Positions 5,049 to 60,218 of a stretch of DNA of 64,000 nt are shown one piece after another. Source of the DNA: a virus; IMG/VR virus record IMGVR_UViG_3300017991_000051, positions 1 to 64,000 of that record. One strand, written 5' to 3'. The position numbers and the translations under genes were made by a program. Numbering within the stretch: the first letter of the stretch is position 1; every line of letters begins with the position of its first letter. The notes beneath the pieces are model-generated. The model was not told the origin of the DNA. It saw nothing but the letters and a program-made list of their open reading frames with translations, and made no database searches.

Positions 5049-5458
5049 TACTGATCGTCCTCCTTCTCCAACGTGACTGCACGCTTCTCCGGTGGAATTA
5101 CCAGACGCACGTCCCGCAGCCACTGCGGTTTGTAATACCCTTTGAGATGGTTCCACAACTCGACGACGTCGACGATGCTCTTCCCCGTGAACTCAACGTC
5201 CCACGCTGCCTCCCGGTGCGTACCCGACTGTTTGTTGCGTACCTTCCCCCAGCGTAGACGCTGGGCCGACAACTTCCTCCCGATCTTCTTCGAGAAGAGG
5301 TCGAGCGGAGAACAGTACGCGAATGCGATCCGGATCATTCCCTCCGGAATCGCTGGCGTCTCCTCCGACGCCTCCTTCGGTCCGATCGCATAAGCGGCGG
5401 TGATGATGCCGTTGTGCTTCGCCCCGTTCGTTCGTCCGAAATAGTAGTGACCGATCAT
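5048..5458 (-). CDS. hypothetical protein, 136 aa
   Basis: Starts at ATG 5458 (MIGHYYFGRT), with GGAGG ten bases upstream. The frame is open to 5491. Contains many aromatic and basic residues, no motif known to me. Its stop overlaps the start of the next gene, so the two are probably translationally coupled. Confidence 0.6.
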   Translation of the reverse strand: MIGHYYFGRTNGAKHNGIITAAYAIGPKEASEETPAIPEGMIRIAFAYCSPLDLFSKKIGRKLSAQRLRWGKVRNKQSGTHREAAWDVEFTGKSIVDVVELWNHLKGYYKPQWLRDVRLVIPPEKRAVTLEKEDDQ

Positions 5459-8875: not shown

Positions 8876-8960
8876 CTAACGAAGAGGCCCGTTCCAGGGT
8901 CGGTCTACCTCGCGTCACGGGCCAACGACACGACGTCCGATTGATTTTTGTACAGAGGAA

Positions 8961-9318
8961 TGGAGCCGCTGGGAGTCGAACCCAGGTCCGTTCGAGAGTC
9001 ACCTAGTGACTCATTCACGTGCGTAGTCGCTGATCTGTATACGGCTCATGCGACAAGCCTCTCACGTCTTTCCGTGATTGCCAGCTCTCCCGCTTTTACA
9101 CCACTGTGTTCGGGTAAGCATCCCACACAGCCGGCGACCCGATGTCGTCGTCAGCACCCGCTATCGGGCGTCACCGGGCTGACGATGGTGGCCTAAGCCG
9201 CCATAGGTAGTGCTTCGTTATCGGCACTTGAATGTTTCCGGATGTTTAACGAGGCCAACCGGAGTCCTCGGCACGCAATCACACAGATCCTTCTCGACGT
9301 CGAATCCATTACGGCCCC
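8961..9318 (-). ncRNA. ssrA: transfer-messenger RNA (tmRNA)
   Basis: The 5' end GGGGCCG pairs with the 3' end CGGCTCC (7-bp acceptor stem, one G-U), followed by A73. CCA is not encoded (TTC follows), so it must be added after transcription. Hallmarks seen: ATGGATTCGACG after the 5' stem, TGCCGAGG and GGTTGGCCTCGTTAAA as in E. coli tmRNA, a T-arm GGGTTCGACTCCC, and a tag reading frame at 9193-9225 in the expected place. The tag reads ADNEALPMAA and stop (TAG). The central part holds several GC stems that could form the usual pseudoknots. tmRNA rescues stalled ribosomes and tags the nascent chain for ClpXP-type proteolysis. Phage-encoded copies are known but uncommon. Confidence 0.93.
9193..9225 (-). 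other. tmRNA tag-peptide reading frame
   Basis: GCC GAT AAC GAA GCA CTA CCT ATG GCG GCT TAG: resume codon GCC, tag ADNEALPMAA. It keeps the terminal Ala-Ala degron, but the residues before it (PM) are not the common YAL. Confidence 0.85.
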
Positions 9319-13490: not shown

Positions 13491-14038
13491 TTTCTCTCCC
13501 TCGTTAGTTTAAGCAGCGCCTTGTACAAATCCGGGGATTCCTTTCTCCCCGCCGGCGCATTCCACTCCACTTCCATCCCGTACAGTTTAGCCTCCTCGCG
13601 GCTGATCTTCTTCTGCTCCCCCGCGTCGTAGGCCTGCCAGAAGGCATTATCCTCGATGGGAAACAGGGTCGTAAATGGCGGATCCGTCCTCGTCTTGAGA
13701 ATCCGCTCATTAAAATGCAACAAAACGAAACAAATTACGCCGAAGCGCGCCCGCCGCTGCATGTGCTTATACTGGTGCTTGAACGATTTGTGGGTACCCC
13801 CCGACAGATCGTAGCTCGGCTGGCTGGACGCCTTCGCATCGAAGATGAACTGCCGACCTCCCGACAGCACCCCCTCGAAGTCCGGCAGGGACTTGATAGG
13901 CGCCCACTGTCCATCGCGCAATGTCGCCATAACACCGTAACGTCCCATGCAGTATCTGCCTGCCAGCTCGTCGTGCTGACGAGCGCGCCATAGCAGCAGC
14001 TCCTCCAGTTCCTTACCCGTCAACTTCGGTACAATCAT
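13487..14038 (-). CDS. recU: RecU-like Holliday junction resolvase
   Basis: The 183-aa protein has DFEGVLSGGRQFIFDAKAS, the D...(D/E)xK nuclease core of RecU, then HQYKHM and FGVICFVLLHF as in that family. RecU cuts four-way DNA junctions made by RecA-type strand exchange or branched replication. It fits with the RecA and Rad50-like ATPase elsewhere in this window. The call rests on motif order, not an alignment. Confidence 0.7.
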   Translation of the reverse strand: MIVPKLTGKELEELLLWRARQHDELAGRYCMGRYGVMATLRDGQWAPIKSLPDFEGVLSGGRQFIFDAKASSQPSYDLSGGTHKSFKHQYKHMQRRARFGVICFVLLHFNERILKTRTDPPFTTLFPIEDNAFWQAYDAGEQKKISREEAKLYGMEVEWNAPAGRKESPDLYKALLKLTRERK

Positions 14039-14813
14039 ACTTTTGTGTTCTCCACTTTTTAGTTAGTATGTCAGGACGATAGCGTTTAAGGTGCGCTACA
14101 GCAAACGCTGTCAGATCTTTCACGCGCTGCCCTGGCGGATGCTTCTTTGTACGCCGGTCTGGATGTACGCCGTGTCGGCACAGTTCCAAGTTTTCAAGTC
14201 TATTGTCGTCGCGTTTCCCGTTCTTGTGATGTACACATTCATCGGAAAACAAAGAACGTCCCAAGTGTTGCTCCATAACAAGTACGTGCTCGCGCACATA
14301 GCGATATTTATCGCCGCGTTTCCGATCTGGTCGCAGTACGCGTATATACCCCTCTTGGTCTTTTGTACGGCCGCGCCGACCGGTAGTAACATCATCATCC
14401 GTTACACGCAGCTTACGTAGCAACTCCGTGCGTAAGCAGCCGCAACTCTTCGACACCCCGCTCTTCATAGAGGAGCCTAAAACAGACTTTTCAGTACCGC
14501 AATCGCAGCGGCAGATCCATCGCATGCCTCGTTTTGTCGTCGCGGCGCGGTCGCGCCGAAGTACGAGAAGGCGCCCAAAGCGTTTACCTGTAAGATCTAC
14601 AACAGATTTTTTCCTCAATTCAGCGGCCAAGCAACCACAGCTTAAAGTACGTCCTTGGAGTAGGCATGTTCTACTGGTAACGTGCTTTTTACCACAATCG
14701 CAAACACACTCCCAACGATCGTAACATATCCACTTCTTCTTCTCTTTGCAGCGAATGGCCGTAAGTCTACCGAACCGCTGTCCCGTTATGTCGGCCGGAT
14801 ATTTCTTTCTCAT
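14013..14813 (-). CDS. HNH homing endonuclease with two zinc-ribbon repeats
   Basis: Residues 1-70 and 72-135 are two copies of a 'G.RFGRL...W.C.CDCG...SCGCL' repeat. The C-terminal domain has an HNH core (ECVHHKNGKRDDNRLENLEL). The architecture matches free-standing phage homing endonucleases that cut DNA at a target site and spread by repair. Its 3' end overlaps RecU by 26 bases and its 5' end overlaps the exonuclease, so it seems inserted between them without breaking either. Confidence 0.85.
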   Translation of the reverse strand: MRKKYPADITGQRFGRLTAIRCKEKKKWICYDRWECVCDCGKKHVTSRTCLLQGRTLSCGCLAAELRKKSVVDLTGKRFGRLLVLRRDRAATTKRGMRWICRCDCGTEKSVLGSSMKSGVSKSCGCLRTELLRKLRVTDDDVTTGRRGRTKDQEGYIRVLRPDRKRGDKYRYVREHVLVMEQHLGRSLFSDECVHHKNGKRDDNRLENLELCRHGVHPDRRTKKHPPGQRVKDLTAFAVAHLKRYRPDILTKKWRTQKYDCTEVDG

Positions 14814-15636
14814 CGTTACACCCCACTACTTCAGCACCTTGGGCTTCGGCTGCTAGTTCGCCGAAAACCAATTTCGTGATGTAACAATCATATCCTGCGT
14901 CGTGTGCTTGGGCAATGGAAACATTGTACTTTAATTCCATATTCCAATACGGTATGCAAAAACGTTCCAGCGCAAAATACACGCCATAAGCGCGCTCCTC
15001 ACCTACCCTTGCGTAGAACTTCCGACAGGACTCGTTGCCGAGGATCCTGCGCTTCAGTATCGCCGCCTTGATCAGCATACCCGTATCGACTAAACCGTCT
15101 TCAGGAAATCGGAAGTCGATGCCGTACTTCTTACAGTTGATCTCGATGAACGGAAGGTCGAACTTCGCTCCGTTCTGCATGACTATAGGATGGCCACCAT
15201 CAACAAACGTCTGGACGATTTCAGTAATCGTCCGAAGACCTTCCCTCGGATCCACGCCCTGTGACCGGACTTCTCCGATGAATTCGGCCTCTGCTTTTTT
15301 ATACCCCGCATCTTCGCGGTTTACCGGCGCTTTAGGGTTATGCGGTATACCCAAGGCCTTCGCGCGCCGGCGTGAGATTTCGAACGTAGCCTGCCGAAGC
15401 TGGTTCTCCTCCAGCTTCAGATAGAGCGTAGACCCCTTAACGGGGTCACACTGCGGTTCCCCGTGCATGACGGGATAGAGCCCTATCTGCCAAATAAATC
15501 CGTTCGCCGGTTCAACGCCCGTAGTTTCCAAGTCGAGGACGAGGAAACTATCCGGGAGTTTTAGTGAACTATCGTTCATTATCCGGCGCAGGTTGTATTG
15601 CAGAGTCTCCGGATCAGGTTTTCTCAGCTTTTTCAT
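14767..15636 (-). CDS. DnaQ-like 3'-5' exonuclease (DEDDh)
   Basis: ATG at 15636 follows AAGGAG. Exo I VLDLETTG (residues 32-39), Exo II NGAKFDLPFI and Exo III AHDAGYDCYIT supply the four acidic residues and the catalytic His of the DEDDh class. It may act as a stand-alone proofreader or a DNA/RNA trimming nuclease. The polymerase in this window carries its own exonuclease domain, so a different role is likely. Confidence 0.85.
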   Translation of the reverse strand: MKKLRKPDPETLQYNLRRIMNDSSLKLPDSFLVLDLETTGVEPANGFIWQIGLYPVMHGEPQCDPVKGSTLYLKLEENQLRQATFEISRRRAKALGIPHNPKAPVNREDAGYKKAEAEFIGEVRSQGVDPREGLRTITEIVQTFVDGGHPIVMQNGAKFDLPFIEINCKKYGIDFRFPEDGLVDTGMLIKAAILKRRILGNESCRKFYARVGEERAYGVYFALERFCIPYWNMELKYNVSIAQAHDAGYDCYITKLVFGELAAEAQGAEVVGCNDEKEISGRHNGTAVR

Positions 15637-15796
15637 TGGTGTCTCCTTCTACGGGCGGCATGATTCGATCAACAAGCTCATGTACGCGGTCGGACTTGGC
15701 GATCACCGCCCCAGTATATGCCGTACATAAGTTTGCCGGCGGACACGGGTCGTCCTGCAACGCTTTCTCTATTAGTCGTTTCCGGCGCTTACTCAC
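15614..15796 (-). CDS. small protein, 60 aa, GTG start
   Basis: GTG at 15796 lies six bases after GGAGG and overlaps the upstream stop; its own stop overlaps the exonuclease start region. Basic N-terminus, acidic C-terminus. Function unknown. Confidence 0.5.
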   Translation of the reverse strand: MSKRRKRLIEKALQDDPCPPANLCTAYTGAVIAKSDRVHELVDRIMPPVEGDTNEKAEKT

Positions 15797-36905: not shown

Positions 36906-37082
36906 TTACCTCCTCAGCTGTATCGCTGCTATAAACACAGTCGCAAACAATGCCCAGAAGAGCATCATCCCTATCGCATATTTTATTGCGTCACCATTAG
37001 TGGGACAGATATCCTGCGACGTACCGCGTTCCGGCCTGTTCACGCGTTCAGCGTTCCACCATTTTCTAAACCGATTTATCAC
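36906..37082 (-). CDS. small membrane protein, 58 aa, GTG start
   Basis: GTG at 37082 follows AAGGAGG with a five-base spacer. Basic N-terminus, then one transmembrane segment (IKYAIGMMLFWALFATVFIA) and a short basic tail. First gene after the cassette array in the minus-strand transcript; its ribosome site abuts attC site A. Topology suggests N-in. Confidence 0.65.
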   Translation of the reverse strand: MINRFRKWWNAERVNRPERGTSQDICPTNGDAIKYAIGMMLFWALFATVFIAAIQLRR

Positions 37083-37095
37083 TACTTCCTCCTTT

Positions 37096-37148
37096 CAACG
37101 CGAAGCTGAAGGCGACGCGGTAGATCGCGCGCCTTAGCTCAATCGTTG
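37096..37148 (+). other. attC site A (53-base family)
   Basis: Most divergent of the main family (CAACGCGAAG left end, AATCGTTG right end); loop TAGAT. It is the array boundary next to ordinary phage genes. Confidence 0.8.
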
Positions 37149-37358
37149 GAACTCTTGATGAATCTCAAAAGCGTAAATAGTTTTCAGTACGGCTATCACT
37201 GCCTCAATATGTGGCTTGGCCACAAACTTCGGTGTGCATACTTTTCCGTCTGGGCTATGCTTCCATTCGTCGGGGCTCTCGGCCCACGCTTCCAGCTGGC
37301 CGTCATCCAGCGTCTTGAAATGAAACTGCCAATCGTGTCGAGGTAAAACCGATAACAT
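37134..37358 (-). CDS. cassette protein, 74 aa
   Basis: ATG at 37358 lies eight bases from GGAGG. The stop lies inside attC A. Starts MLSVLPRHDWQFHFKTLDDG; no family known. It shares a 13-base divergent start region with the 37372 gene. Confidence 0.6.
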   Translation of the reverse strand: MLSVLPRHDWQFHFKTLDDGQLEAWAESPDEWKHSPDGKVCTPKFVAKPHIEAVIAVLKTIYAFEIHQEFQRLS

Positions 37359-37371
37359 AGGAGAATCCTCC
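37359..37371. promoter_or_regulatory. shared divergent ribosome-binding palindrome
   Basis: AGGAGAATCCTCC separates two divergent ATGs. AGGAG serves the plus gene and, on the other strand, GGAGG serves the minus gene, each with an eight-base spacer. Confidence 0.6.
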
Positions 37372-37605
37372 ATGGCTCAGGTTATGAATGAACATTGCAT
37401 GCGTTTTGCTGGGCAGCTCCATACCGTTAGTCAGACATGGGACGAATACCAGCTAACCGTAACGATCAGTCCACCATCTAAGCCACTGGCGAAACGATTG
37501 TCACAGTTGTTGACACCGACGAACCAGCTAATGCTGATTTTCAACGAAGGTGCTTGGGAGTTCCAACAAGGAGCTGAAGGCGACGCGGTAAACCGCGCGC
37601 CTTAG
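37372..37605 (+). CDS. cassette protein, 77 aa
   Basis: Plus-strand gene in the classic cassette direction, ending inside attC B (last residues EGDAVNRAP are attC-encoded). Starts MAQVMNEHCMRFAGQLHTVS. No family known. Confidence 0.6.
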   Translation: MAQVMNEHCMRFAGQLHTVSQTWDEYQLTVTISPPSKPLAKRLSQLLTPTNQLMLIFNEGAWEFQQGAEGDAVNRAP

Positions 37606-37616
37606 CTCAACCGTTG
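37564..37616 (+). other. attC site B (53-base family)
   Basis: CAACAAGGAGCTGAAGGCG arm, loop TAAAC, right end CAACCGTTG. Confidence 0.9.
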
Positions 37617-37627
37617 AAAGGTAAACA

Positions 37628-37918
37628 TTATGGAACTTGAACAGTGTTGTCAGAATCCGGCGTGTCCGGACAAAGGTGCCCCGCTACACACTTATACCAC
37701 GGAGCTAATGGCTCACGAGGATCCAGCTCTACCCACGTCTGACACAATAGCGGATACGGACCGCCCGACTTCTCACACAGAGTGTAGCCCAACTTTTCTA
37801 CTTCTTGTCTGCTCAGCTTGCGGTCTGACACGAATGTTTCATCATGAGACACAACTGCAATCGTCCGCCCGTCATCGTCCAGAACGGGGGTCACTTTTGT
37901 AACTTGTGCTGCAAACAT
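37628..37918 (-). CDS. cassette protein, 96 aa
   Basis: ATG at 37918 follows AAGGAGG with five bases between. Starts MFAAQVTKVTPVLDDDGRTI; a Cys pair (CVAGHLC) lies near the end. Lies opposite the 37630 frame. Function unknown. Confidence 0.6.
   Translation of the reverse strand: MFAAQVTKVTPVLDDDGRTIAVVSHDETFVSDRKLSRQEVEKLGYTLCEKSGGPYPLLCQTWVELDPREPLAPWYKCVAGHLCPDTPDSDNTVQVP
37630..37902 (+). CDS. possible cassette protein opposite the 37628 gene, 90 aa
   Basis: ATG 16 bases after the attC B crossover with AAAGG at eight bases. CCQNPACPDKG ... CSACG could be a zinc ribbon. Fully overlaps the minus gene; I prefer the minus one but cannot exclude both. Confidence 0.4.
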   Translation: MELEQCCQNPACPDKGAPLHTYTTELMAHEDPALPTSDTIADTDRPTSHTECSPTFLLLVCSACGLTRMFHHETQLQSSARHRPERGSLL

Positions 37919-37931
37919 TATAACCTCCTTT

Positions 37932-37984
37932 CAACAAGGAGCTGAAGGCGACGCGGTTGCCCGCGCGCCTTAGCTCAACCGTTG
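37932..37984 (+). other. attC site C (53-base family)
   Basis: Loop TTGCC; otherwise identical to B. Confidence 0.9.
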
Positions 37985-38097
37985 TCTGCATTGAACTGGC
38001 GCTGTACTGGCTGCGCCATGATGATGTGCTGTGCTGCGTGAATCGCGCGGCGAAATTCGGTAGTTTCGTCGGAATGCACCGAGTTAAGTCGCACAAA

Positions 38098-38226
38098 CTA
38101 GTTCCATGCGTCTGCCAGTCTGCTCACGACCGAATTTTCGGCGGCAGACAACAAAGAGGTGGACGGCGACACGGAAACCGCGCCGACCTCCTCTGTTGCT
38201 TCGTTGCGTTGTTCAGCGGTTTCCAT
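38098..38226 (-). CDS. cassette peptide, 42 aa, start inside attC D
   Basis: ATG at 38226 lies eight bases after GGAGG, and both are part of the attC D stem. Starts METAEQRNEATEEVGAVSV; acidic. A further 35-codon GTG frame runs from 38076 toward site C without ribosome site. Function unknown. Confidence 0.5.
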   Translation of the reverse strand: METAEQRNEATEEVGAVSVSPSTSLLSAAENSVVSRLADAWN

Positions 38227-38247
38227 GCGCGTCACCTCCAGCGTTGG
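38149..38247 (+). other. attC site D (about 99 bases)
   Basis: AACAAAGAGGTGgACG pairs with CGTCACCTCCAGCGTT (lower-case base unpaired), and GGAAACCGC pairs with GCGGTTTCC further in. Confidence 0.7.
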
Positions 38248-38266
38248 CAATGAAAGGAATACAGAG

Positions 38267-38455
38267 ATGAAGTACGTTGTTTATCTTGTCGGCCTACCAG
38301 TTGAAAACGGTATAGAAATCCGAAGTGATGAGGATTTACTAACTCTGTTTCGACAGGACGCCGACCCAAATCGTATTATCTCCGTCTCCCGTTATAAACC
38401 AAACGACACACTACTCCGCGTGTCGTCTATCGCGCTTCTCTCCAAGAAAGATTGA
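38267..38455 (+). CDS. cassette protein, 62 aa
   Basis: ATG at 38267 follows AAAGGA at eight bases, 23 bases after the attC D crossover, the usual cassette layout. Starts MKYVVYLVGLPVENGIEIRS. Its end overlaps the minus 38411 gene by 45 bases. Function unknown. Confidence 0.55.
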   Translation: MKYVVYLVGLPVENGIEIRSDEDLLTLFRQDADPNRIISVSRYKPNDTLLRVSSIALLSKKD

Positions 38456-38584
38456 CGCGGCACGCTCAGCCGCGTTCGCAAGAGTAACTACGCGATCGAA
38501 AAACACCTTGTCCGGTTCTGCCGGATCTTTTTTACTGAGTTCACACTGAAGCACAATATTGAATCGTTCCTGCTTATAGTTCAT
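38411..38584 (-). CDS. cassette protein, 57 aa
   Basis: AGGAGG five bases before ATG at 38584; the start overlaps the previous stop (ATGA). Starts MNYKQERFNIVLQCELSKKD. Function unknown. Confidence 0.6.
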   Translation of the reverse strand: MNYKQERFNIVLQCELSKKDPAEPDKVFFDRVVTLANAAERAASIFLGEKRDRRHAE

Positions 38585-38865
38585 TTTAACCTCCTAATGA
38601 AATTGCCAACAACGCACTGCACGCTATCGGCGTAGGACGCCGAAGCGTGAGTGCAAACGTTCTGCTTTAGGGTTTCCAGCGCCACCAATGCTTCGTCAAT
38701 GTCGCGGATGTTCTCTTGCTCGGCGTCGTCACCGTCAAGGAAGCGTGCCATGTATGCTCTGGCTTTCCACGATTTCCGTGTGTCACGCAGCACCCGCTCG
38801 ATTGTGTGCAAAGCAGAACAATCGGATGGACAACTACCTTCATTCGCCGCGCTTCGCTTTCTCAT
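38581..38865 (-). CDS. cassette protein reading through attC E, 94 aa
   Basis: ATG at 38865 lies within attC F and the frame runs through all of attC E before stopping in the next cassette, so residues of about 69-87 are attC-encoded. Helical centre with many Asp/Glu; five Cys. The ribosome site is weak (AAAGGA, 13 bases). Confidence 0.5.
   Translation of the reverse strand: MRKRSAANEGSCPSDCSALHTIERVLRDTRKSWKARAYMARFLDGDDAEQENIRDIDEALVALETLKQNVCTHASASYADSVQCVVGNFIRRLK
38607..38661 (+). other. attC site E
   Basis: AACAACGCACTGCACGCTATCGGCG pairs with CGCCGAAGCGTGAGTGCAAACGTT; five-base loop. (Arms given as 38608-38632 and 38638-38661.). Confidence 0.75.
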
Positions 38866-38892
38866 TTCGGAGTGTCATCCTTTCCGTTAGAC
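38816..38892 (+). other. attC site F
   Basis: AACAATCGGATGGACA pairs imperfectly with TGTCATCCTTTCCGTT; right end GTTAGAC is a perfect GTTRRRY. Confidence 0.6.
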
Positions 38893-38898
38893 AGCAAC

Positions 38899-39144
38899 TC
38901 AGCGTGCAACGCCGCGAAGCTGCATGAACTTCTTTCCGATGCTTTCCACAACGCACTTAGCCTCTGCACCTTCCTCGTTGCGGACGTAGACCGTCTCACC
39001 GTTGCGGAAGATCGGCCACAACCTCTCATCTTGTAGGCTGTTGCGCTTCGGGCCTTCCATGCGGTCGAGGATCTCATCCCTCATGGACTTCAGGGTGGCC
39101 ACATCTTCCGCCGTCTCAAACGTTCCTGTATCTGGTCTTTGCAT
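38899..39144 (-). CDS. cassette protein, 81 aa
   Basis: AAAGGAC before ATG at 39144. Starts MQRPDTGTFETAEDVATLKS, with a beta-rich end (GETVYVRNEEGAEAKCVVES). Function unknown. Confidence 0.6.
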   Translation of the reverse strand: MQRPDTGTFETAEDVATLKSMRDEILDRMEGPKRNSLQDERLWPIFRNGETVYVRNEEGAEAKCVVESIGKKFMQLRGVAR

Positions 39145-39163
39145 GTCTGTCCTTTCTGTTGCT

Positions 39164-39220
39164 GTCTAACAACTCACTTGAACCGACGCCTAAAGGCGCG
39201 GCTCACTTCGGGCGTTAGAT
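39164..39220 (+). other. attC site G
   Basis: Canonical ends GTCTAAC and GTTAGAT, 57 bases, CGACGCC/GGCGCGG inner arms with one unpaired A. Confidence 0.85.
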
Positions 39221-39469
39221 TGCCCTTGTGTTCCAGTTGTCCAACGCCTTTTCAAGCGTTTCTCCTGTTGTCTGCGGAGTCACAGGGCATTCCTCGTTGT
39301 CACAGCCCACAAAGTGTTTGGTCGGTGCGCCTCCGTGCCACGGCTCAATGTCTGGCAACATGCCGCAGAATGGGCAATCTAACAAAGCACTGGACTGTAC
39401 TTCTGAAAGCCGCACGTCCGACTTGCCTGAGTGTGATTCAAACACATAGCATCCATTCTCATTTATCAT
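39215..39469 (-). CDS. restriction-alleviation (Lar)-like zinc protein
   Basis: AAAGGA six bases before ATG at 39469. LLDCPFCGMLPD, then CDNEECPV and a final ALDNWNTRAI are the Lar family pattern (CPxCG, second Cys pair, W-N-x-R end). Lar of the Rac prophage lowers type I restriction. 84 aa. An anti-restriction gene is a sensible cassette cargo for a phage. Confidence 0.7.
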   Translation of the reverse strand: MINENGCYVFESHSGKSDVRLSEVQSSALLDCPFCGMLPDIEPWHGGAPTKHFVGCDNEECPVTPQTTGETLEKALDNWNTRAI

Positions 39470-39519
39470 CGTTGTTCCTTTCCCCGGCTTTCAGAAGCCA
39501 GTCAGTTTATGCGTTGGGT
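39377..39519 (+). other. attC site H (143 bases)
   Basis: Ends ATCTAAC and GTTGGGT. CTTCTGAAAGCCG and CGGCTTTCAGAAG are perfect inner arms around a long loop. The 5' part of the Lar-like gene lies in the loop. Confidence 0.75.
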
Positions 39520-39522
39520 TGC

Positions 39523-39714
39523 TCAGTCCTGTCCCTGTCCATGTGACGGCCCCTGTACGAGCCGGTACATCTCCGGCGGAAGGCTGAAGTTTAGAAACTG
39601 ATCGCAGTCCTTCCAACCGTCTTCCCTCAACGCTTGCAGTTTGGTATCCGTCATTCCCCATGCAATCATCAGCTTGCCCATTTCGACTGCCTGTTCTCTT
39701 GTGTAGCCTTTCAT
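39523..39714 (-). CDS. cassette protein, 63 aa
   Basis: AAAGGAG before ATG at 39714. Starts MKGYTREQAVEMGKLMIAWG; helical with an unstructured tail. Function unknown. Confidence 0.6.
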   Translation of the reverse strand: MKGYTREQAVEMGKLMIAWGMTDTKLQALREDGWKDCDQFLNFSLPPEMYRLVQGPSHGQGQD

Positions 39715-39736
39715 CGTCCTTCTCCTTTCGTTCGCA

Positions 39737-39794
39737 ACCCAACAACCCCGTGCACCCGACTCGCTAAGGCTCGCGGGTAACGGCGGCGTTAGAT
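39737..39794 (+). other. attC site I
   Basis: Ends ACCCAAC and GTTAGAT; inner ACCCGACTCGC region pairs with GCGGGT. Confidence 0.8.
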
Positions 39795-40043
39795 TTCCAG
39801 CCTTAGCAACTCAACAACTTTACGGTCCTGTTCGTTTCCTGTCTCAATCGTCAAACGGCCTTCCTCGAACGCCCTTCGCACGAATGGTCCCAACAAGCCG
39901 ACTTGATCCCCGTACACTTTCATCTTGTCATAGATGTAACCGATACTGTTGCCCATGTAGGTCTGGTTTGCCAACGAATGTTGTAGGTGCTCGATTTCAT
40001 CCTTCAACTCATTCAGATCGTCCAACTCAACCTCAACCTTCAT
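39789..40043 (-). CDS. cassette coiled-coil protein, 84 aa
   Basis: AAGGAGG five bases before ATG at 40043. Starts MKVEVELDDLNELKDEIEHL, a clear heptad helix, then a Gly/Tyr-rich middle. Function unknown. Confidence 0.65.
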   Translation of the reverse strand: MKVEVELDDLNELKDEIEHLQHSLANQTYMGNSIGYIYDKMKVYGDQVGLLGPFVRRAFEEGRLTIETGNEQDRKVVELLRLEI

Positions 40044-40067
40044 ACCTGCCTCCTTTTGCGGCTGGAA

Positions 40068-40127
40068 ATCTAACAACTGCGTGGACGTTATCGGCTACCC
40101 GCCGAAACGTCACGCGACGCGTTGGAC
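40068..40127 (+). other. attC site J
   Basis: Ends ATCTAAC and GTTGGAC, both perfect; GCGTGGACG/CGTCACGC and CGGC/GCCG arms. Confidence 0.85.
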
Positions 40128-40306
40128 ATATTGACTGCCGCGTGCGCAACGGGCTTGCCGCAGATCACGCATTTCCCGGCGCTGTCCGGCCTGACTTTGT
40201 GCTTGCCGCCCATGTAGCAAGCGCCATAATACAACCCGCACCACTTACGATGCTTGGCCCAGTCGAACACCATGAGTCCGCATCTCGGGCACTTGTCACA
40301 CGTCAC
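40088..40306 (-). CDS. cassette zinc-finger protein, 72 aa, GTG start
   Basis: GTG at 40306 is seven bases after AAGGAG. CDKCPRCGLMVFDWAKHRKW and CVICGKPVAH give two Cys/His clusters. The last 13 residues come from attC J. Nucleic-acid binding likely. Confidence 0.6.
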   Translation of the reverse strand: MTCDKCPRCGLMVFDWAKHRKWCGLYYGACYMGGKHKVRPDSAGKCVICGKPVAHAAVNMSNASRDVSAGSR

Positions 40307-40322
40307 GTTGGTTCTCCTTCCT

Positions 40323-40469
40323 GCCCAACAACTCACTTGAACCGACGCCTATCGGGCGTATCATCCTCGCCTCGCTTTCTCGCACCGCTTGCACAGGCGA
40401 CGGTTCGGTGGGGGGTGGGTGGTTTCGTGCCAGCCAGCCCATTCGTGCCAAACAGTTAAGCAGTTGGTT
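40323..40469 (+). other. attC site K (tentative)
   Basis: Left end GCCCAAC and arm AACTCACTTGAACCGACGCC match site G; the right end is unclear (GTTGGTT at 40463 is my best guess). Confidence 0.4.
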
Positions 40470-40561
40470 ATCCCCCAATGCTCGCGCTCGGTGACGTGAA
40501 ACCTGTGGCGGATTACATGGTACACCCTGCCTCGGGCGGTGTGGGCGTAGCGGGGGGTCAT
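40361..40561 (-). CDS. cassette protein with CxxC end, 66 aa
   Basis: The start (40561) overlaps the previous stop (ATGA), so translation is coupled. Starts MTPRYAHTARGRVYHVIRHR, His/Trp-rich, with LCKRCEKARRG at the end. Function unknown. Confidence 0.55.
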   Translation of the reverse strand: MTPRYAHTARGRVYHVIRHRFHVTEREHWGITNCLTVWHEWAGWHETTHPPPNRRLCKRCEKARRG

Positions 40562-40761
40562 AATGCACCATCCTCGTCGGGCCGCTGGTGGTCGCTGGCA
40601 AGACGCCCCAAGCGCACCCGCACGTCGGGGTGCAGAAGGTTGTTGCCATCCAGCCAACACTCAAACTCATGTAGGATGCCGTTGACGCCAACAGTCACGA
40701 GGCACTCCTGAATGTTCTCTACGCGCTGGTCTAGGAATGTTCCGAATAATGATGGTCCCAT
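40558..40761 (-). CDS. cassette protein, 67 aa
   Basis: AAGGAGG five bases before ATG at 40761; the frame extends upstream without another site. Starts MGPSLFGTFLDQRVENIQEC. Two-gene cassette with the 40361 gene. Confidence 0.6.
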   Translation of the reverse strand: MGPSLFGTFLDQRVENIQECLVTVGVNGILHEFECWLDGNNLLHPDVRVRLGRLASDHQRPDEDGAL

Positions 40762-40821
40762 TTTGCCCTCCTTTGTCGTGCCTTCCTCATATCGCCTTCC
40801 GGCAAATCTGCTCGCCACGGG

Positions 40822-40871
40822 GTCCAATATCCTGTTATCAGGCAAAATCGCCTGTCAATCAGTGGTTGGGC
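40822..40871 (+). other. attC site L (tentative, 50 bases)
   Basis: Right end GTTGGGC is perfect; left end GTCCAAT has T instead of the final C. ATCAGGC/GCCTGTC arms. Confidence 0.5.
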
Positions 40872-41065
40872 GTATCACTTTCACCGCCTCCCACGAAATG
40901 CGGAATGGTACACCCCGCAAACATCGCCGCCTTTTGCAGAAAGTCCTGCCGACCCTCGGCGGTGTCATCGGGAGGCCACACAAACTTCTCGATGATTTCC
41001 TTGGCCCGCGTCAGTTCCTCGTTCAACTCCGTGATCTTGATCGCTCGTCTGTCTGCCTTGTTCAT
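40859..41065 (-). CDS. cassette protein, 68 aa
   Basis: GAGGAGG four bases before ATG at 41065. Starts MNKADRRAIKITELNEELTR, helical; ends with a Gly-rich tail. Function unknown. Confidence 0.6.
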   Translation of the reverse strand: MNKADRRAIKITELNEELTRAKEIIEKFVWPPDDTAEGRQDFLQKAAMFAGCTIPHFVGGGESDTPNH

Positions 41066-41076
41066 CGGTCCTCCTC

Positions 41077-41134
41077 GCCCAACCAAGGGCTGCAATCTAC
41101 CTCGCTATTCGCTCGGAGCTTGAGCCCCGGCGTT
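41077..41134 (+). other. attC site M
   Basis: Left end GCCCAAC; GGGCTGCAA pairs with TTGAGCCCC; right end CGTT without RRRY. Confidence 0.55.
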
Positions 41135-41365
41135 CTGCGCCATTCGTTTCTTGGCCTCATTCTCAAGCTCAAGCCGTCGTATTTCATTTTCAACCTTCAT
41201 TTCCCAATCAAGCTCTTGCAGATTGTGGGCCTTAATCCATGAATCTACTCGCCGCTTCTTGATCCACTCCGTATAGCGCAGAACAAGGCGCTGGACACTA
41301 CGGCTTGCCCGCAGTTTCCAAACCCGACCCATTCTGCACAGCCATTGCCACAGATTCTCGTGCAT
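41105..41365 (-). CDS. cassette basic helical protein, 86 aa
   Basis: AAGGAGG four bases before ATG at 41365. N-terminus Trp/Arg-rich, then a Lys/Glu heptad helix (VENEIRRLELENEAKKRMAQ). Function unknown. Confidence 0.6.
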   Translation of the reverse strand: MHENLWQWLCRMGRVWKLRASRSVQRLVLRYTEWIKKRRVDSWIKAHNLQELDWEMKVENEIRRLELENEAKKRMAQNAGAQAPSE

Positions 41366-41410
41366 CACGCCTCCTTGTTGTCGGCAAGCCGAGTGTCAGC
41401 TTGCACGTTG
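41282..41410 (+). other. attC site N (129 bases)
   Basis: AACAAGGCGCTGGACACT and CGGCTTGCC pair with GGCAAGCCG and AGTGTCAGCTTGCACGTT. Confidence 0.7.
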
Positions 41411-41424
41411 GAGTAACCAAAACA

Positions 41425-41667
41425 ATGAATAATGAAAATACCTTATGGGAGCAACTTGATGATGCTCTGAAGCGTATCGAGCAACTTGAGCACCAAGTAG
41501 CTACGATCCGGAGGAAGACTAGCGCGAGCATCAATGGGTACGCCCGCGTTCTCCACAAGATCGCCGCCCACTTGGGTCTCAGCCGGTGTTTCACATTTTG
41601 CAGCACGATCGATGTCGGCGATGCTGACAGAGTCGTTATGCGGCATATTACACCTCCTTTAGATTAA
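41425..41667 (+). CDS. cassette coiled-coil protein, 80 aa (paralogue of 42898)
   Basis: Starts MNNENTLWEQLDDALKRIEQ 18 bases after the attC N crossover. Nearly identical to the 42898 gene over its first 38 residues; most base differences there fall at plus-strand third codon positions, so this frame has been under selection. Helical. Function unknown. Confidence 0.65.
   Translation: MNNENTLWEQLDDALKRIEQLEHQVATIRRKTSASINGYARVLHKIAAHLGLSRCFTFCSTIDVGDADRVVMRHITPPLD
41443..41646 (-). CDS. antisense cassette protein, 67 aa
   Basis: AAAGGAGGTG just before ATG at 41646, one of the best ribosome sites in the array, but the frame lies wholly inside the plus gene. Ends LVLKLLDTLQSIIKLLP as does the 42916 frame. 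Confidence 0.4.
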   Translation of the reverse strand: MPHNDSVSIADIDRAAKCETPAETQVGGDLVENAGVPIDARASLPPDRSYLVLKLLDTLQSIIKLLP

Positions 41668-41674
41668 AAAACTC

Positions 41675-41727
41675 CAACAAGGAGCTGAAGGCGACGCGGT
41701 TGCCCGCGCGCCTTAGCTCAACCGTTG
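41675..41727 (+). other. attC site O (53-base family)
   Basis: Loop TTGCC; identical to C. Confidence 0.9.
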
Positions 41728-41736
41728 GAAACCGAT

Positions 41737-41964
41737 ATGAAAAAACAAAACACAAAAGCATTGCTCGACCGCCTAGACGAACTTATCGATCAGTTGCCAA
41801 CCGATGAACAACGCCAGTTCCATGTTCACGCGCTGTGGAATTTGTTGTCTCTGCATGCCATTGCTGATGTGCAACGTAAACTTGCTCTAATGTCAGGCTT
41901 GTTCGGTCTCCTTGGCGTGCTTCTCGGCGCGGCTCTAACATACATAATACAACGGTACAAATGA
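41737..41964 (+). CDS. cassette membrane protein, 75 aa
   Basis: Starts MKKQNTKALLDRLDELIDQL; a helical soluble part then a C-terminal membrane segment (LMSGLFGLLGVLLGAALTYI). Tail-anchored topology likely. The attC end GTTGGAAACC acts as a poor ribosome site. Confidence 0.6.
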   Translation: MKKQNTKALLDRLDELIDQLPTDEQRQFHVHALWNLLSLHAIADVQRKLALMSGLFGLLGVLLGAALTYIIQRYK

Positions 41965-42016
41965 CCAAGCCGGTAACAATACCAATACAGCCACCGATAA
42001 TTCCATGGGATATCAT
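41783..42016 (-). CDS. antisense cassette membrane protein, 77 aa
   Basis: GGAGG five bases before ATG at 42016; MISHGIIGGCIGIVTGLVIC begins with a membrane segment, of which 18 residues lie outside the plus gene. The rest overlaps it. Confidence 0.4.
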   Translation of the reverse strand: MISHGIIGGCIGIVTGLVICTVVLCMLEPRREARQGDRTSLTLEQVYVAHQQWHAETTNSTAREHGTGVVHRLATDR

Positions 42017-42038
42017 AAACACCTCCTCTAATTGTTTC

Positions 42039-42091
42039 CAACAAGGAGCTGAAGGCGACGCGGTAGATCGCGCGCCTTAGCTCAACCGTTG
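42039..42091 (+). other. attC site P (53-base family)
   Basis: Loop TAGAT. Confidence 0.9.
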
Positions 42092-42097
42092 TGAAAT

Positions 42098-42316
42098 ATG
42101 ATTATTCAAGTACCTAACTCATTACGTCGTCGGTTTGTTGCGGGCTGCCGAACGCTCGGGCTCGATCCGAGTCTAAGCGTTGATCTATCGAAAGATCAGT
42201 TGCCCGAGTATCATGTACAGACAGAGACCCCGGAACAGCGGGCGGGTTTGCATCGTCTCTGCGCAGCCTTATCGCTCTCGCAAGAACAACTGCCGCCGCA
42301 TGCCGAAGAGACGTGA
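42098..42316 (+). CDS. cassette protein, 72 aa
   Basis: ATG ten bases after the crossover, no clear ribosome site. Starts MIIQVPNSLRRRFVAGCRTL; HRLCAALSLS near the end recalls QQLCAAQGVR in the 43545 protein, so the two may be distant paralogues. Confidence 0.5.
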   Translation: MIIQVPNSLRRRFVAGCRTLGLDPSLSVDLSKDQLPEYHVQTETPEQRAGLHRLCAALSLSQEQLPPHAEET

Positions 42317-42461
42317 GTAGAAATATGTCGTCAGGTTCAACGTATTTGCGAAGCTCGGGTTTTATCTCAAGCACACCCATGTCAAAATATGCGTACTCTC
42401 CGTCTTTGTTTATCAATGAGCCCGGTACTCTATCGTTCAAAAATTCCAATATATCGATCAT
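42114..42461 (-). CDS. cassette protein, 115 aa
   Basis: GGAGG five bases before ATG at 42461. Starts MIDILEFLNDRVPGSLINKD; the first 48 residues are outside the plus gene and look like a normal globular protein. The remainder overlaps it. Confidence 0.55.
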   Translation of the reverse strand: MIDILEFLNDRVPGSLINKDGEYAYFDMGVLEIKPELRKYVEPDDIFLLTSLRHAAAVVLARAIRLRRDDANPPAVPGSLSVHDTRATDLSIDQRLDSDRARAFGSPQQTDDVMS

Positions 42462-42476
42462 GTATACCTCCATTCA

Positions 42477-42531
42477 CAACAAACGGCTGGAGCTTACCGG
42501 CTAAGGCGCCGGAAGCTCAGCCGCATCGTTG
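42477..42531 (+). other. attC site Q (second family)
   Basis: AACAAACGGCTGGAGCTTaCCGGC pairs with GCCGGAAGCTCAGCCGCATCGTT (arms at 42478-42501 and 42508-42530). Confidence 0.85.
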
Positions 42532-42809
42532 GACTTAAGATAGGAACACAGTTCATGAACGAAGTTATTCAACAGATCAAGGAGCACTTCGCCGCTGGGG
42601 CCTCCTCCGTGACTCTCGTCTACTCCGACCGCACTGTGTTCATACACGCTCTTCCGCGGAATCCGAGTCCGGAGCAGACCTACGCCTATCGCGCGTTCTG
42701 TTCTCGAATCGAAAAAGATCTCGATACTCTCCATGTTATTGACGTCCGGCAAGGAGTTTGGCTCCGCCAGTACGACACCGTTTCCGGAAAATTCAGTCTT
42801 GTCCGCCAT
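42501..42809 (-). CDS. antisense cassette protein, 102 aa
   Basis: AGGAGG eight bases before ATG at 42809. Starts MADKTEFSGNGVVLAEPNSL; the stop lies in attC Q. Completely covers the plus gene. Confidence 0.45.
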   Translation of the reverse strand: MADKTEFSGNGVVLAEPNSLPDVNNMESIEIFFDSRTERAIGVGLLRTRIPRKSVYEHSAVGVDESHGGGPSGEVLLDLLNNFVHELCSYLKSNDAAELPAP

Positions 42810-42815
42810 GATTAA
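42555..42815 (+). CDS. cassette protein, 86 aa
   Basis: AGGA nine bases before ATG. Starts MNEVIQQIKEHFAAGASSVT; C-rich third codon positions like other genes here. Function unknown. Confidence 0.55.
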   Translation: MNEVIQQIKEHFAAGASSVTLVYSDRTVFIHALPRNPSPEQTYAYRAFCSRIEKDLDTLHVIDVRQGVWLRQYDTVSGKFSLVRHD

Positions 42816-42830
42816 AACCTCCTGATTGTC

Positions 42831-42883
42831 CAACAAGGAGCTGAAGGCGACGCGGTAAACCGCGCGCCTTAGCTCAACCGTTG
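42831..42883 (+). other. attC site R (53-base family)
   Basis: Loop TAAAC; identical to B. Confidence 0.9.
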
Positions 42884-42897
42884 GAGTAACCAAAACA

Positions 42898-43143
42898 ATG
42901 AATAATGAAAATACCTTATGGGAGCAACTTGATGATGCTCTGAAGCGTATCGAGCAGCTTGAGCACCAGGTTGAAACGATCCGAAGAGAGACCAATACGG
43001 TCATTAACGGATACGCCCGCGTGCTCCACCACATCACCACCCTTCTTAAAATCAGGGATGACGTTGTGCTTTGCGACACTACCGACGTCGGTAGTGAGAA
43101 CGTGATCATGCGTCGTGCCCATAATAAACCTCCACTAGATTAA
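42898..43143 (+). CDS. cassette coiled-coil protein, 81 aa (paralogue of 41425)
   Basis: Starts MNNENTLWEQLDDALKRIEQ and ends KPPLD like its partner (TPPLD). Between the copies CAA/CAG, GTA/GTT, CGG/CGA, AGG/AGA, ACT/ACC, ATC/ATT and AAT/AAC are silent changes in this frame. Confidence 0.65.
   Translation: MNNENTLWEQLDDALKRIEQLEHQVETIRRETNTVINGYARVLHHITTLLKIRDDVVLCDTTDVGSENVIMRRAHNKPPLD
42916..43122 (-). CDS. antisense cassette protein, 68 aa
   Basis: GGAGG six bases before ATG at 43122. Ends LVLKLLDTLQSIIKLLP. Wholly inside the plus gene. Confidence 0.4.
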   Translation of the reverse strand: MGTTHDHVLTTDVGSVAKHNVIPDFKKGGDVVEHAGVSVNDRIGLSSDRFNLVLKLLDTLQSIIKLLP

Positions 43144-43152
43144 AGAAGACTC

Positions 43153-43204
43153 CAACAAGGAGCTGAAGGCGACGCGGTAGACCGCGCGCCTTAGCTCAAC
43201 CGTT
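43153..43204 (+). other. attC site S (53-base family)
   Basis: Loop TAGAC; right end CCGTTC. Confidence 0.9.
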
Positions 43205-43225
43205 CGCAAATAGAAAGGAAACGTA

Positions 43226-43480
43226 ATGACTCCAGACCAGCAAGCCGATCTTGAAGGACGTCTCCTCATGCTGGAAGCGCTCGTTCAGATGTTTCTGGTG
43301 GAACATCTTCGCCGAGCGCCTGATATCGTATCGGATGCGGGAGCGCTGACCACCGACTGCCTGAAGTCGTTTGCTTCTGCGCCCCCTCCAGTTTCTGAGC
43401 GAGCTGCCGCAAGATTGCGGCAACTGCTTGACGCAAGTATCGCATGCGCATCTGTACTTCCTCCTTTTCCTTTGTATTGA
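43226..43480 (+). CDS. cassette protein, 84 aa
   Basis: AAAGGA seven bases before ATG. Starts MTPDQQADLEGRLLMLEALV; helical. Function unknown. Confidence 0.55.
   Translation: MTPDQQADLEGRLLMLEALVQMFLVEHLRRAPDIVSDAGALTTDCLKSFASAPPPVSERAAARLRQLLDASIACASVLPPFPLY
43266..43451 (-). CDS. antisense cassette protein, 61 aa
   Basis: AAGGAGG eight bases before ATG at 43451. Starts MRMRYLRQAVAAILRQLAQK, basic amphipathic helix. Inside the plus gene. Confidence 0.4.
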   Translation of the reverse strand: MRMRYLRQAVAAILRQLAQKLEGAQKQTTSGSRWSALPHPIRYQALGEDVPPETSERALPA

Positions 43481-43487
43481 TGTTGCG

Positions 43488-43539
43488 AACAAGGAGCTGA
43501 AGGCGACGCGGTTGCCCGCGCGCCTTAGCTCAACCGTTG
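43488..43539 (+). other. attC site T (53-base family)
   Basis: Loop TTGCC; left base G instead of C. Confidence 0.9.
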
Positions 43540-43542
43540 GCA

Positions 43543-43896
43543 TTATGATTGTAGATCTATCCAATCTTCCTCAATCCACGCTTGTCGCGCTAACGCAAGC
43601 CAGTCGCGAGTGCGGATTGACCGTTTCGAGTTCAGCTCCGGTATCTCCACTGGGCCCGACCAGCCTACGGATATATCTTGATCGGACTGAACTTCCGATG
43701 TTACAGCAGCTTTGCGCCGCACAAGGCGTTCGGCTAAATCCTTGGCCACATCTGCCAGACGCTTTGCAAGCCACTTAGTATCCTCAAGCTCCAACGGCTG
43801 ATACGCCGCACGGACCGCCATCGCCCCAAAAACGATGCAGCGGTCATCAACAACTACGTCGATTAGCGGATGAAGAACATCTGTAACCTCTATCAT
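43543..43896 (-). CDS. cassette protein, 117 aa
   Basis: AAGGAG before ATG at 43896. Starts MIEVTDVLHPLIDVVVDDRC; about 40 residues are outside the plus gene. A helical stretch (KWLAKRLADVAKDLAERLVR) follows. Function unknown. Confidence 0.6.
   Translation of the reverse strand: MIEVTDVLHPLIDVVVDDRCIVFGAMAVRAAYQPLELEDTKWLAKRLADVAKDLAERLVRRKAAVTSEVQSDQDISVGWSGPVEIPELNSKRSIRTRDWLALARQAWIEEDWIDLQS
43545..43778 (+). CDS. cassette protein, 77 aa
   Basis: ATG nine bases after the crossover. Starts MIVDLSNLPQSTLVALTQAS. Opposite the 43543 gene. Possible distant paralogue of the 42098 protein. Confidence 0.5.
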   Translation: MIVDLSNLPQSTLVALTQASRECGLTVSSSAPVSPLGPTSLRIYLDRTELPMLQQLCAAQGVRLNPWPHLPDALQAT

Positions 43897-43916
43897 GATA
43901 TTGACTCCTTACATGC

Positions 43917-43970
43917 CAACAATCGGCTGGAGCTTACCGGCTATGGCGCCGGAAGCTCAGCCGCAACGTT
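43917..43970 (+). other. attC site U (second family, array edge)
   Basis: Same sequence as Q except for a few bases (AATCGG, TATGG, CAACGTT). Right boundary of the array. Confidence 0.85.
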
Positions 43971-44130
43971 ACGCAGGCCAACACTTGAACCCAGCAGGAA
44001 GGCGCCGTACGCCTTCCCACTCTCGGGCCCACTTCCTCGCGCCCGCCTCGTCAACGGGCTCCTCGAACTCGACAGGCCCCAGCGCATACGCGTCACGGGG
44101 AAACTTTACATACCATCTCTTCGCTATCAT
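43969..44130 (-). CDS. small protein at array edge, 53 aa
   Basis: ATG at 44130 with GAGG seven bases upstream; the stop TAA overlaps the GTT of attC U. Starts MIAKRWYVKFPRDAYALGPV. It contains a GGAAGGCG/CGCCTTCC hairpin. Function unknown. Confidence 0.6.
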   Translation of the reverse strand: MIAKRWYVKFPRDAYALGPVEFEEPVDEAGARKWAREWEGVRRLPAGFKCWPA

Positions 44131-44134
44131 GACC

Positions 44135-44812
44135 TTACCTCACTACAAATCCTGTTGTGTCCCTTCGTGCATCCCCCTTCGCGCTCAATCCCACCACCGC
44201 CGGCGATGGATCGAGAAAGCGTAGATCACTGTCGTCACCCGTGAGTACGGGGTAACCCCAGTGGGTTTGCGGAATCTTCTCGAATATGACTGCTACGTTG
44301 TGCCCGGCCGCGAGGGTGCGCTTGCACGCCGCCTCGTTACATATGCCCCGACTGAGCAACAGGTAGTAGTTAGGACGCTTCACCGTCCGCACCCGCCTCG
44401 ATGAACGGGTGTAGTCGTAGAACTGGACCGATGGAAACCGCGCCATGATATTGCCGAACTCCGGCGAATACCACGGGATATCGCTCGTGCCATTCAGACG
44501 CACGGCCGGGCCCATACCCTGCCGGTACGCTTTCCTGACGAGCGCAGCGATATCGTCGCACAGCTGATCGATGAATCCCCCACGATCATCGAACAACCAG
44601 CGCGTCTTCCTGATCCTCGATTCCTTTACGCTATCAAACTGTCCTCGACCTGCCGTGTACAGGCAAGCCCTGCGACAGCCTCTGTCCGCGAATGGGCAGA
44701 CGTTATACTTTCGTCCTGCGTTTGTTGCCGACGCTAAGTGAAGAATTCCCGTGAGCCACCCCTTCTTCTCACCCTTCCGGGTCTTAGCGTTCGACGTCGT
44801 CAGTAATCTCAT
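44135..44812 (-). CDS. phage gp88-like protein
   Basis: 225 aa. MRLLTTSNAKTRKGEKKGWL, CPFADRGCRRACLYTAGRG, SRIRKTRW, VRLNGTSDIPW and DYTRSSRR in this order fit the phage 'gene product 88' family. Its Cys cluster suggests a metal site. Role not established. ATG at 44812 has only GGGA upstream; the 44826 motif precedes it. Confidence 0.7.
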   Translation of the reverse strand: MRLLTTSNAKTRKGEKKGWLTGILHLASATNAGRKYNVCPFADRGCRRACLYTAGRGQFDSVKESRIRKTRWLFDDRGGFIDQLCDDIAALVRKAYRQGMGPAVRLNGTSDIPWYSPEFGNIMARFPSVQFYDYTRSSRRVRTVKRPNYYLLLSRGICNEAACKRTLAAGHNVAVIFEKIPQTHWGYPVLTGDDSDLRFLDPSPAVVGLSAKGDARRDTTGFVVR

Positions 44813-60146: not shown

Positions 60147-60218
60147 TGGTGGGCGGGGATGGATTCACACCACCGACCTCCGGGTTGTAGCCCGGCGCTC
60201 TTACTGAGCTACCCGCCC
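60147..60218 (-). tRNA. tRNA-like gene with reduced loops, CCA encoded
   Basis: Acceptor GGGCGGG/CCCGCCC plus ACCA, D-stem GCTC/GAGC, anticodon stem CCGGG/CCCGG, T-stem GGTGG/CCATC. Odd points: D-loop only AGTAA (no G18G19), anticodon loop six bases (CTACAA, seven expected), T-loop TGTGAAT instead of TTCRANN. Restoring one T would give a tRNA-Val(TAC). The isotype is therefore undecided; it may be decayed or a deliberate tRNA mimic. Confidence 0.7.

Follow-up and report, generated by a model that had tools for sequence, protein, structure and literature searches.

The window considered here, the whole stretch of DNA analysed, comprises positions 1-64000 of the 169,252-base virus record IMGVR_UViG_3300017991_000051, and between 37093 and 43974 it contains an array of integron-type attC sites interspersed with small genes. 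We consider it very probable that this is a bona fide cluster of attC sites lacking an integrase (CALIN) carried by a large phage, and that most of its cassettes are reversed. As predicted from start signals, the genes of the window mostly face away from their attC sites, the opposite of the arrangement in bacterial cassettes; this feature was missed in the first-pass annotation, in which a model had seen the letters of this DNA and drawn attention to the array.

The attC sites

In all there are 20 attC sites (here numbered a1 to a20 from left to right), every one of them on the plus strand; 19 are intact and one is broken, and between them they delimit 19 cassettes. The first-pass annotation had placed about 21 sites in this region, which was right as to location and slightly off as to number. 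All the expected elements of an attC hairpin are present, namely the R''-L''-L'-R' order of boxes, the AAC and GTT ends and the unpaired bases in the 5' arm that had been described there as bulges, and this architecture is the same as that of class 1 attC sites.

Detection was based largely on two covariance models, the use of such models having been suggested in the first-pass annotation, and scores lay far above background with both. Model R1 was built from sites of the window together with sites from bacterial metagenome-assembled genomes (MAGs), and finds 18 sites in the window, the next match in the entire 169 kb (E 0.32) being simply the antisense of one of them. As a control, it recovers the attC sites of class 1 integron plasmids at the expected places, and on phage TJE1 it finds three sites, equal to the published number. 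Model R2 was built solely from class 1 integron attC sites and so provides an independent test: it finds nine sites in the window, with E-values from 7e-12 to 3e-7, without any further match in the record up to E 5, while 223 kb of other viral contigs gave no match at all. With its speed filters switched off, R2 also reports sites starting at 40068, 42473, 43914 and 39737, at E 3e-4 to 0.04. Rfam gave no match in the array at either threshold, but it contains no attC family and misses proven class 1 attC sites also.

Eight sites belong to what will be called type 1. These are a1 (37093-37151; 62.4 bits with R1 and 33.7 with R2), a2 (37561-37619; 71.9 and 43.5), a3 (37929-37987; 57.2 and 37.3) and, with R2 scores, a14 (41672-41730; 46.9 bits), a15 (42036-42094; 34.9), a17 (42828-42886; 44.1), a18 (43150-43208; 33.9) and a19 (43484-43542; 43.4). 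It had been claimed that all eight are one sequence in which only a 5-base loop changes (TAGAT, TAAAC, TTGCC or TAGAC); the eight-member type holds good, but loop-only variation is true of seven, the leftmost site departing from the others in a handful of stem and spacer positions as well. The second type, with two sites, is exactly as claimed, these being a16 (42474-42534; R1 66.7 bits) and a20 (43914-43974; R1 62.9 bits).

The remaining sites are indeed diverse in sequence and length, although the intact sites range from 57 to 143 bases rather than the 50 to 147 originally given. They include a5 (38604-38665; R1 58.1 bits), a9 (39737-39794; 51.1), a10 (40068-40127; 52.2) and a12 (41077-41138; 56.1), as well as three longer sites that were found by R1 despite lying outside its training set: a4 (38146-38249, 104 bases; 34.9 bits), a6 (38813-38892, 80 bases; 24.0) and a13 (41278-41413, 136 bases; 26.4). 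Site a7 (39164-39220) is class-1-like and scores 47.7 bits with R2 (E 7e-12). The longest, a8 (39377-39519, 143 bases), was missed by the models and was recognised from its R and L boxes and from the 12-base end match of its cassette. Finally, a11 (40323-40360), recognised from its sequence and from its place in repeat family D5, is a broken remnant with an a7-like 5' half, the 3' arm having been lost. Taken as a set, the predicted sites are genuine attC sites of integron type.

Cassettes as recombination units

In an integron cassette the R'' box pairs with the start of its own cassette rather than with the neighbouring box, crossover occurring at G|TT. Just this pattern is seen in the window, where the end of a cassette matches its own start over a mean of 9.2 bases and the adjacent box over only 3.8 (19 cassettes); none of 20,000 permutations reached the observed sum, and a match of at least 6 bases arises by chance in 2% of pairs. 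Because own-end matching exceeds adjacent matching in this way, the cassettes can be taken as joined at G|TT, and as read from the letters of this single genome, recombination at G|TT is evident. At the edges of the array, the R'' box of a1 has no upstream partner and the R' box of a20 no downstream one.

Such matching also bears on the possibility that the repeats are intercistronic hairpins (for mRNA processing, as terminators or as 5' stabilisers) that merely resemble attC sites. The sites do fold well, and in transcripts they would lie directly upstream of the ribosome-binding sites of minus-strand genes, as such hairpins might. However, hairpins of this kind leave the matching of own start to own end at G|TT unexplained; a model made from class 1 attC sites matches the window sites; cassettes shared between viruses break at GTT (see below); and IntI1 is reported to recombine the attC sites carried by phage PH101 (PMC9892861). 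This explanation is consequently regarded as very improbable.

Two local irregularities were seen within the array. Behind the broken site a11, at 40345-40865, two genes form a single fused block with no site between them. The cassette stretches 41406-41569 and 42879-43042 share about 100 near-identical starting bases, beyond which their identity drops to some 60-65%, a pattern that conversion or exchange of one end might produce.

No integrase was found to accompany the array. Searches of the whole 169,252-base record with PF00589, with TIGR02249 (the integron integrase family) and with phrog_1 gave no match, nor did tblastn with two IntI proteins. The array therefore has the composition of a CALIN (at least two attC sites, here 20, without an integrase), the record having yielded no intI gene such as a complete integron would possess. 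As these searches detected no tyrosine recombinase, we infer an integrase acting in trans; the first-pass annotation had offered either an enzyme encoded elsewhere on the phage or one from the host, and with the former not supported, what is left is an integrase of the host or of a co-infecting element.

Orientation of the cassette genes

A strong Shine-Dalgarno (SD) sequence with a minus-strand start codon lies no more than 60 bases from the attC end in 13 of the 19 cassettes, while the other end shows this arrangement in none of the 19. The corresponding rate for random 60-mers is 4%, giving P 2e-14 for the observed 13. The canonical arrangement, in which a gene ends at its attC site and reads in the direction of the attC top strand, is not what the window holds, the right-half cassettes being ambiguous in this respect. 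In several other cassettes the start falls inside a long site: a4, a6, a8 and a13 carry, in their central region, both the start codon and the ribosome-binding site of the adjacent minus-strand gene.

In the left half of the array, where the cassette genes have phage-like codon use and phage signals, predicted reversed genes (all on the minus strand, as are all those that follow) lie at 37628-37918, with SD sequence GGAGG beside a3; at 38098-38226, starting within a4, whose L' box provides the GGAGG; at 38411-38584 (SD AGGAGG); at 38581-38865, starting within a6; and at 38899-39144, an example with phage-like codons. The gene at 39215-39469 starts within a8 and encodes a probable Lar-like restriction alleviation protein (PF14354, E 5.5e-6; phrog_599, E 3.2e-7). 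It is followed by genes at 39523-39714 (SD AGGAG), 39789-40043 (AGGAGG) and 40088-40306, the last having a GTG start, the SD sequence AGGAG and a weak resemblance to zinc ribbons, and then by one at 40558-40761 (GGAGG) in the fused stretch behind a11, by another at 40859-41065 (GGAGG) and by one at 41105-41368 that starts within a13.

In the right half, reversed open reading frames (ORFs) occur at 41443-41646 (a candidate; SD AGGAGG), 41783-42016 (GGAGG), 42114-42461 (GGAGG), 42501-42809 (AGGAGG), 42916-43122 (GGAGG; a paralogue of the first of these), 43266-43451 (AGGAGG) and 43543-43896 (AGGAG). Each is overlapped by a plus-strand ORF, these being, in the same order, at 41425-41667, 41737-41964, 42098-42316, 42555-42815, 42898-43143, 43226-43480 and 43545-43778.

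Arrays in other viral contigs and in bacteria

Further viral contigs with arrays were collected using two attC patterns. Among 123 viral cassettes, a strong start signal was found at the attC end in 83 and at the other end in 7; for 44 bacterial cassettes the corresponding figures are 2 and 26 (Fisher P 1.5e-17). Taken contig by contig, 34 of the viral arrays are reversed, one is canonical and nine remain uncalled. The single viral contig with a clear canonical majority, L144, has four cassettes, in all of which the longest ORF is forward; as a contrast, it may help to explain why bacterial polarity is retained in some phages. A reversed majority is not seen either in L152, L180 and L199, viral contigs in which intI is matched over a long stretch. 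Use of the longest ORF to call orientation in viral arrays was tried and rejected, antisense ORFs being apt to stay open. Instead, orientation in these other arrays is settled by the fact that family matches fall on reversed ORFs only: the 80 reversed ORFs searched gave matches to 15 Pfam and 74 PHROGs families, whereas no Pfam or PHROGs family was matched by the 84 forward ORFs of these arrays. The families represented include DNA methyltransferases, Mom, gp49/66, dATP/dGTP pyrophosphohydrolase and RNase H. A separate observation is that contig L004 encodes, on the minus strand at 13789-15660, a 623-residue protein matching RNA polymerase Rpb1 domain 5 (E 1.6e-17), which suggests that this phage may encode a multi-subunit RNA polymerase.

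Single cassettes are also found in common between viral contigs that are otherwise unrelated, at about 76-96% identity, and in the clearest cases (L127/L159, L147/L179 and L147/L157) the similarity ends at GTT. Breakpoints at GTT had been put forward in the first-pass annotation as a check, and they are borne out in these contigs, though not for the window's own cassettes. In L179, near position 763 (minus-strand coordinates), the cassette shared with L147 starts straight after sequence that is not attC, and this left-hand neighbour suggests that the cassette may have inserted into the phage DNA at a secondary G|TT site.

Weighing the evidence

A number of observations tell against a reversed, phage-borne array. 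IMG/VR contigs may include host DNA. No close relative of the window phage was found, so that gain or loss of cassettes in this phage itself is unseen, and no attI site or partner box was detected at either edge of the array (no general attI model being used in this search). A named family is available for only one cassette gene of the window, the Lar-like gene, and its Pfam match is just under the cut-off. The plus-strand ORFs of the right half are similar in length to the reversed ORFs that they overlap, and in the paralogous pair 41425/42898 (cassettes c13 and c17) substitutions concentrate at third positions of the plus-strand frame, while the substitution count in the minus-strand frame is not coding-like. 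From the overlapping ORFs and the bias in this pair it follows that some right-half cassettes may be canonical, or may contain two genes.

Pursuing this last point, the right-hand cassettes with type-1 and type-2 sites might be two-faced, with a canonical plus-strand gene for use in bacterial integrons overlapping a minus-strand gene for use in the phage. ORFs of 60-119 residues are open from both ends, there are strong SD sequences at the attC end, and the plus-frame bias just described would fit. Even so, this arrangement seems quite unlikely, as the forward ORFs of other viral arrays match no family (so that codon bias by itself can be enough to keep antisense ORFs open) and as no plus-strand end among the 19 cassettes has a strong SD sequence.

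Origin of the type-1 sites

The type-1 attC occurs nearly unchanged in bacterial MAGs, with matches of 43-51 bases at 93-98% identity. The labels of the MAGs concerned are Deltaproteobacteria, Desulfobacteraceae, Syntrophobacterales, Kiritimatiellales, Akkermansiaceae, Planctomycetota and WOR-3, some of which may be wrong because arrays bin badly, and the occurrences are scattered single sites across several phyla; in a Kiritimatiellales MAG the site shares a contig with intI. An exact 21-mer of the site was absent from the viral contigs searched, and an 18-mer searched for in genomes gave chiefly chance matches together with eight real attC sites. An array of type-1 sites was found in none of 1,175 sampled genomes, about 390 from each of the three phyla to which the Desulfobacteraceae, Kiritimatiellales and Planctomycetota MAGs belong. 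The proposal in the first-pass annotation that the uniform sites look like a sedentary host array was thus not substantiated. By BLAST the array as a whole matched no phage or plasmid, and the window's own cassettes matched nothing else.

In another explanation, the array is a passive fossil, a stretch of a canonical bacterial integron that the phage acquired through illegitimate or homologous recombination. The lack of an integrase in the record would accord with this, as would the broken site with its two fused genes and the near-identical sites in MAGs, one of them on a contig that also has intI. It is nonetheless unlikely, given that the polarity is opposite to that of bacterial cassettes, that the left-half genes have phage-like codons and signals, that the sole named gene is a phage-type Lar, that structure and ends are intact in 19 of the 20 sites, and that the reversed pattern recurs in 34 viral contigs.

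The phage and its genome

The record carries an identical 95 bases at both ends, and these terminal repeats suggest that it may be a complete phage genome, assembled as a circle. Its replication genes include a family A DNA polymerase, a DnaB-like helicase, an SbcC-like nuclease and a ligase. No match was found in it to the terminase family phrog_2, and for this reason its virion genes are considered too divergent to classify. The phage genes flanking the array run on the minus strand, as do the reversed cassette genes: to the right lies a gene of the GP88 family (44135-44812; PF17338, E 6e-46), and just outside the left edge is one at 36906-37082, with a GTG start and an SD sequence GGAGG abutting a1. 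In distant relatives, identified through the DNA polymerase and flanking proteins (29-46% identity), neither attC sites nor a conserved empty site were found. Elsewhere the phage has a complete transfer-messenger RNA gene (8958-9318, minus strand, tag ADNEALPMAA), a tRNA of uncertain anticodon at 60147-60218, and a transposase-like gene (4005-5156, minus strand; phrog_4285, E 3.7e-29).

A possible mechanism

In the scheme that we favour for this reversed phage CALIN, a gene would start at the attC end of its cassette, its ribosome-binding site lying within the attC site or immediately behind it, and would read away from that site, along the phage operon, so as to be translated from phage transcripts. 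An integron integrase provided in trans would excise and insert cassettes, acting on the bottom strand in its folded form, and the cargo would be accessory phage genes, for instance for anti-restriction or DNA modification. As the orientation of a gene with respect to its own attC site cannot be changed by site-specific recombination, reversed cassettes would have to form with attC already upstream of the gene, and the phage cassette pool would therefore be largely separate from the bacterial one. More speculatively, a reason for the polarity might be that reversal makes the phage coding strand the recombinogenic one; if transcription and replication are co-directional, this would be the lagging-strand template, on which folding might be easier. 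In Vibrio cholerae, inverting the array so that the recombinogenic strand lies on the lagging template strongly raises excision (PMC11023631).

In its fullest form, the proposal is that phages have their own pool of inverted cassettes (attC before gene), with counter-defence and DNA-modification cargo, traded between unrelated phages through borrowed integrases acting in trans, the recombinogenic strand being the coding strand of the operon. We lean slightly towards this wider picture.

Significance and comparison with known systems

Arrays of attC sites in phages are already known, while reversal of genes relative to their attC sites appears to be new. The available part of the paper by Qi et al. 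(2023, PMC9892861) describes array direction and contains no description of such reversal (preprints lying outside the search). The reversal bears on how gene cassettes arise, and on whether phages take part, a question that integron research has yet to settle. Since it is systematic in phages and absent from the bacterial arrays sampled, phage cassettes are not simply bacterial ones in transit; it would point to a second route of cassette making, and to trade of accessory genes from phage to phage by means of integrases that the phage does not carry.

The closest known systems are the CALINs of the virulent phages TJE1, PH101 (also H101), P12002L and MW202573, reported in PMC9892861 along with recombination of phage attC sites by IntI1 in an assay. 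As in the window, attC sites are clustered in these phage genomes with no accompanying integrase, and methyltransferases are among their cargo; they differ in having two or three model-found sites per phage (where any were found), as against 20. In polarity, as determined in the present analysis, PH101 (attC plus, genes minus) and MW202573 (weak sites; attC minus, genes plus) are reversed like the window, whereas TJE1 is canonical.

With sedentary chromosomal integrons of the Vibrio type, the array shares its many cassettes, near-identical attC sites and mostly unknown small genes, but differs in that no intI or attI was found and in having two attC populations and genes that face away from attC. 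With class 1 mobile integrons it has in common the attC architecture, including two extrahelical bases and the G|TT crossover box, but no Pc, attI, intI or resistance genes were found in it, and its genes are reversed. The integrons of Treponema (PMC3607928) likewise show an atypical orientation within an integron, although there it is the integrase gene that is flipped relative to the array, while in the window it is the genes that are flipped relative to attC.

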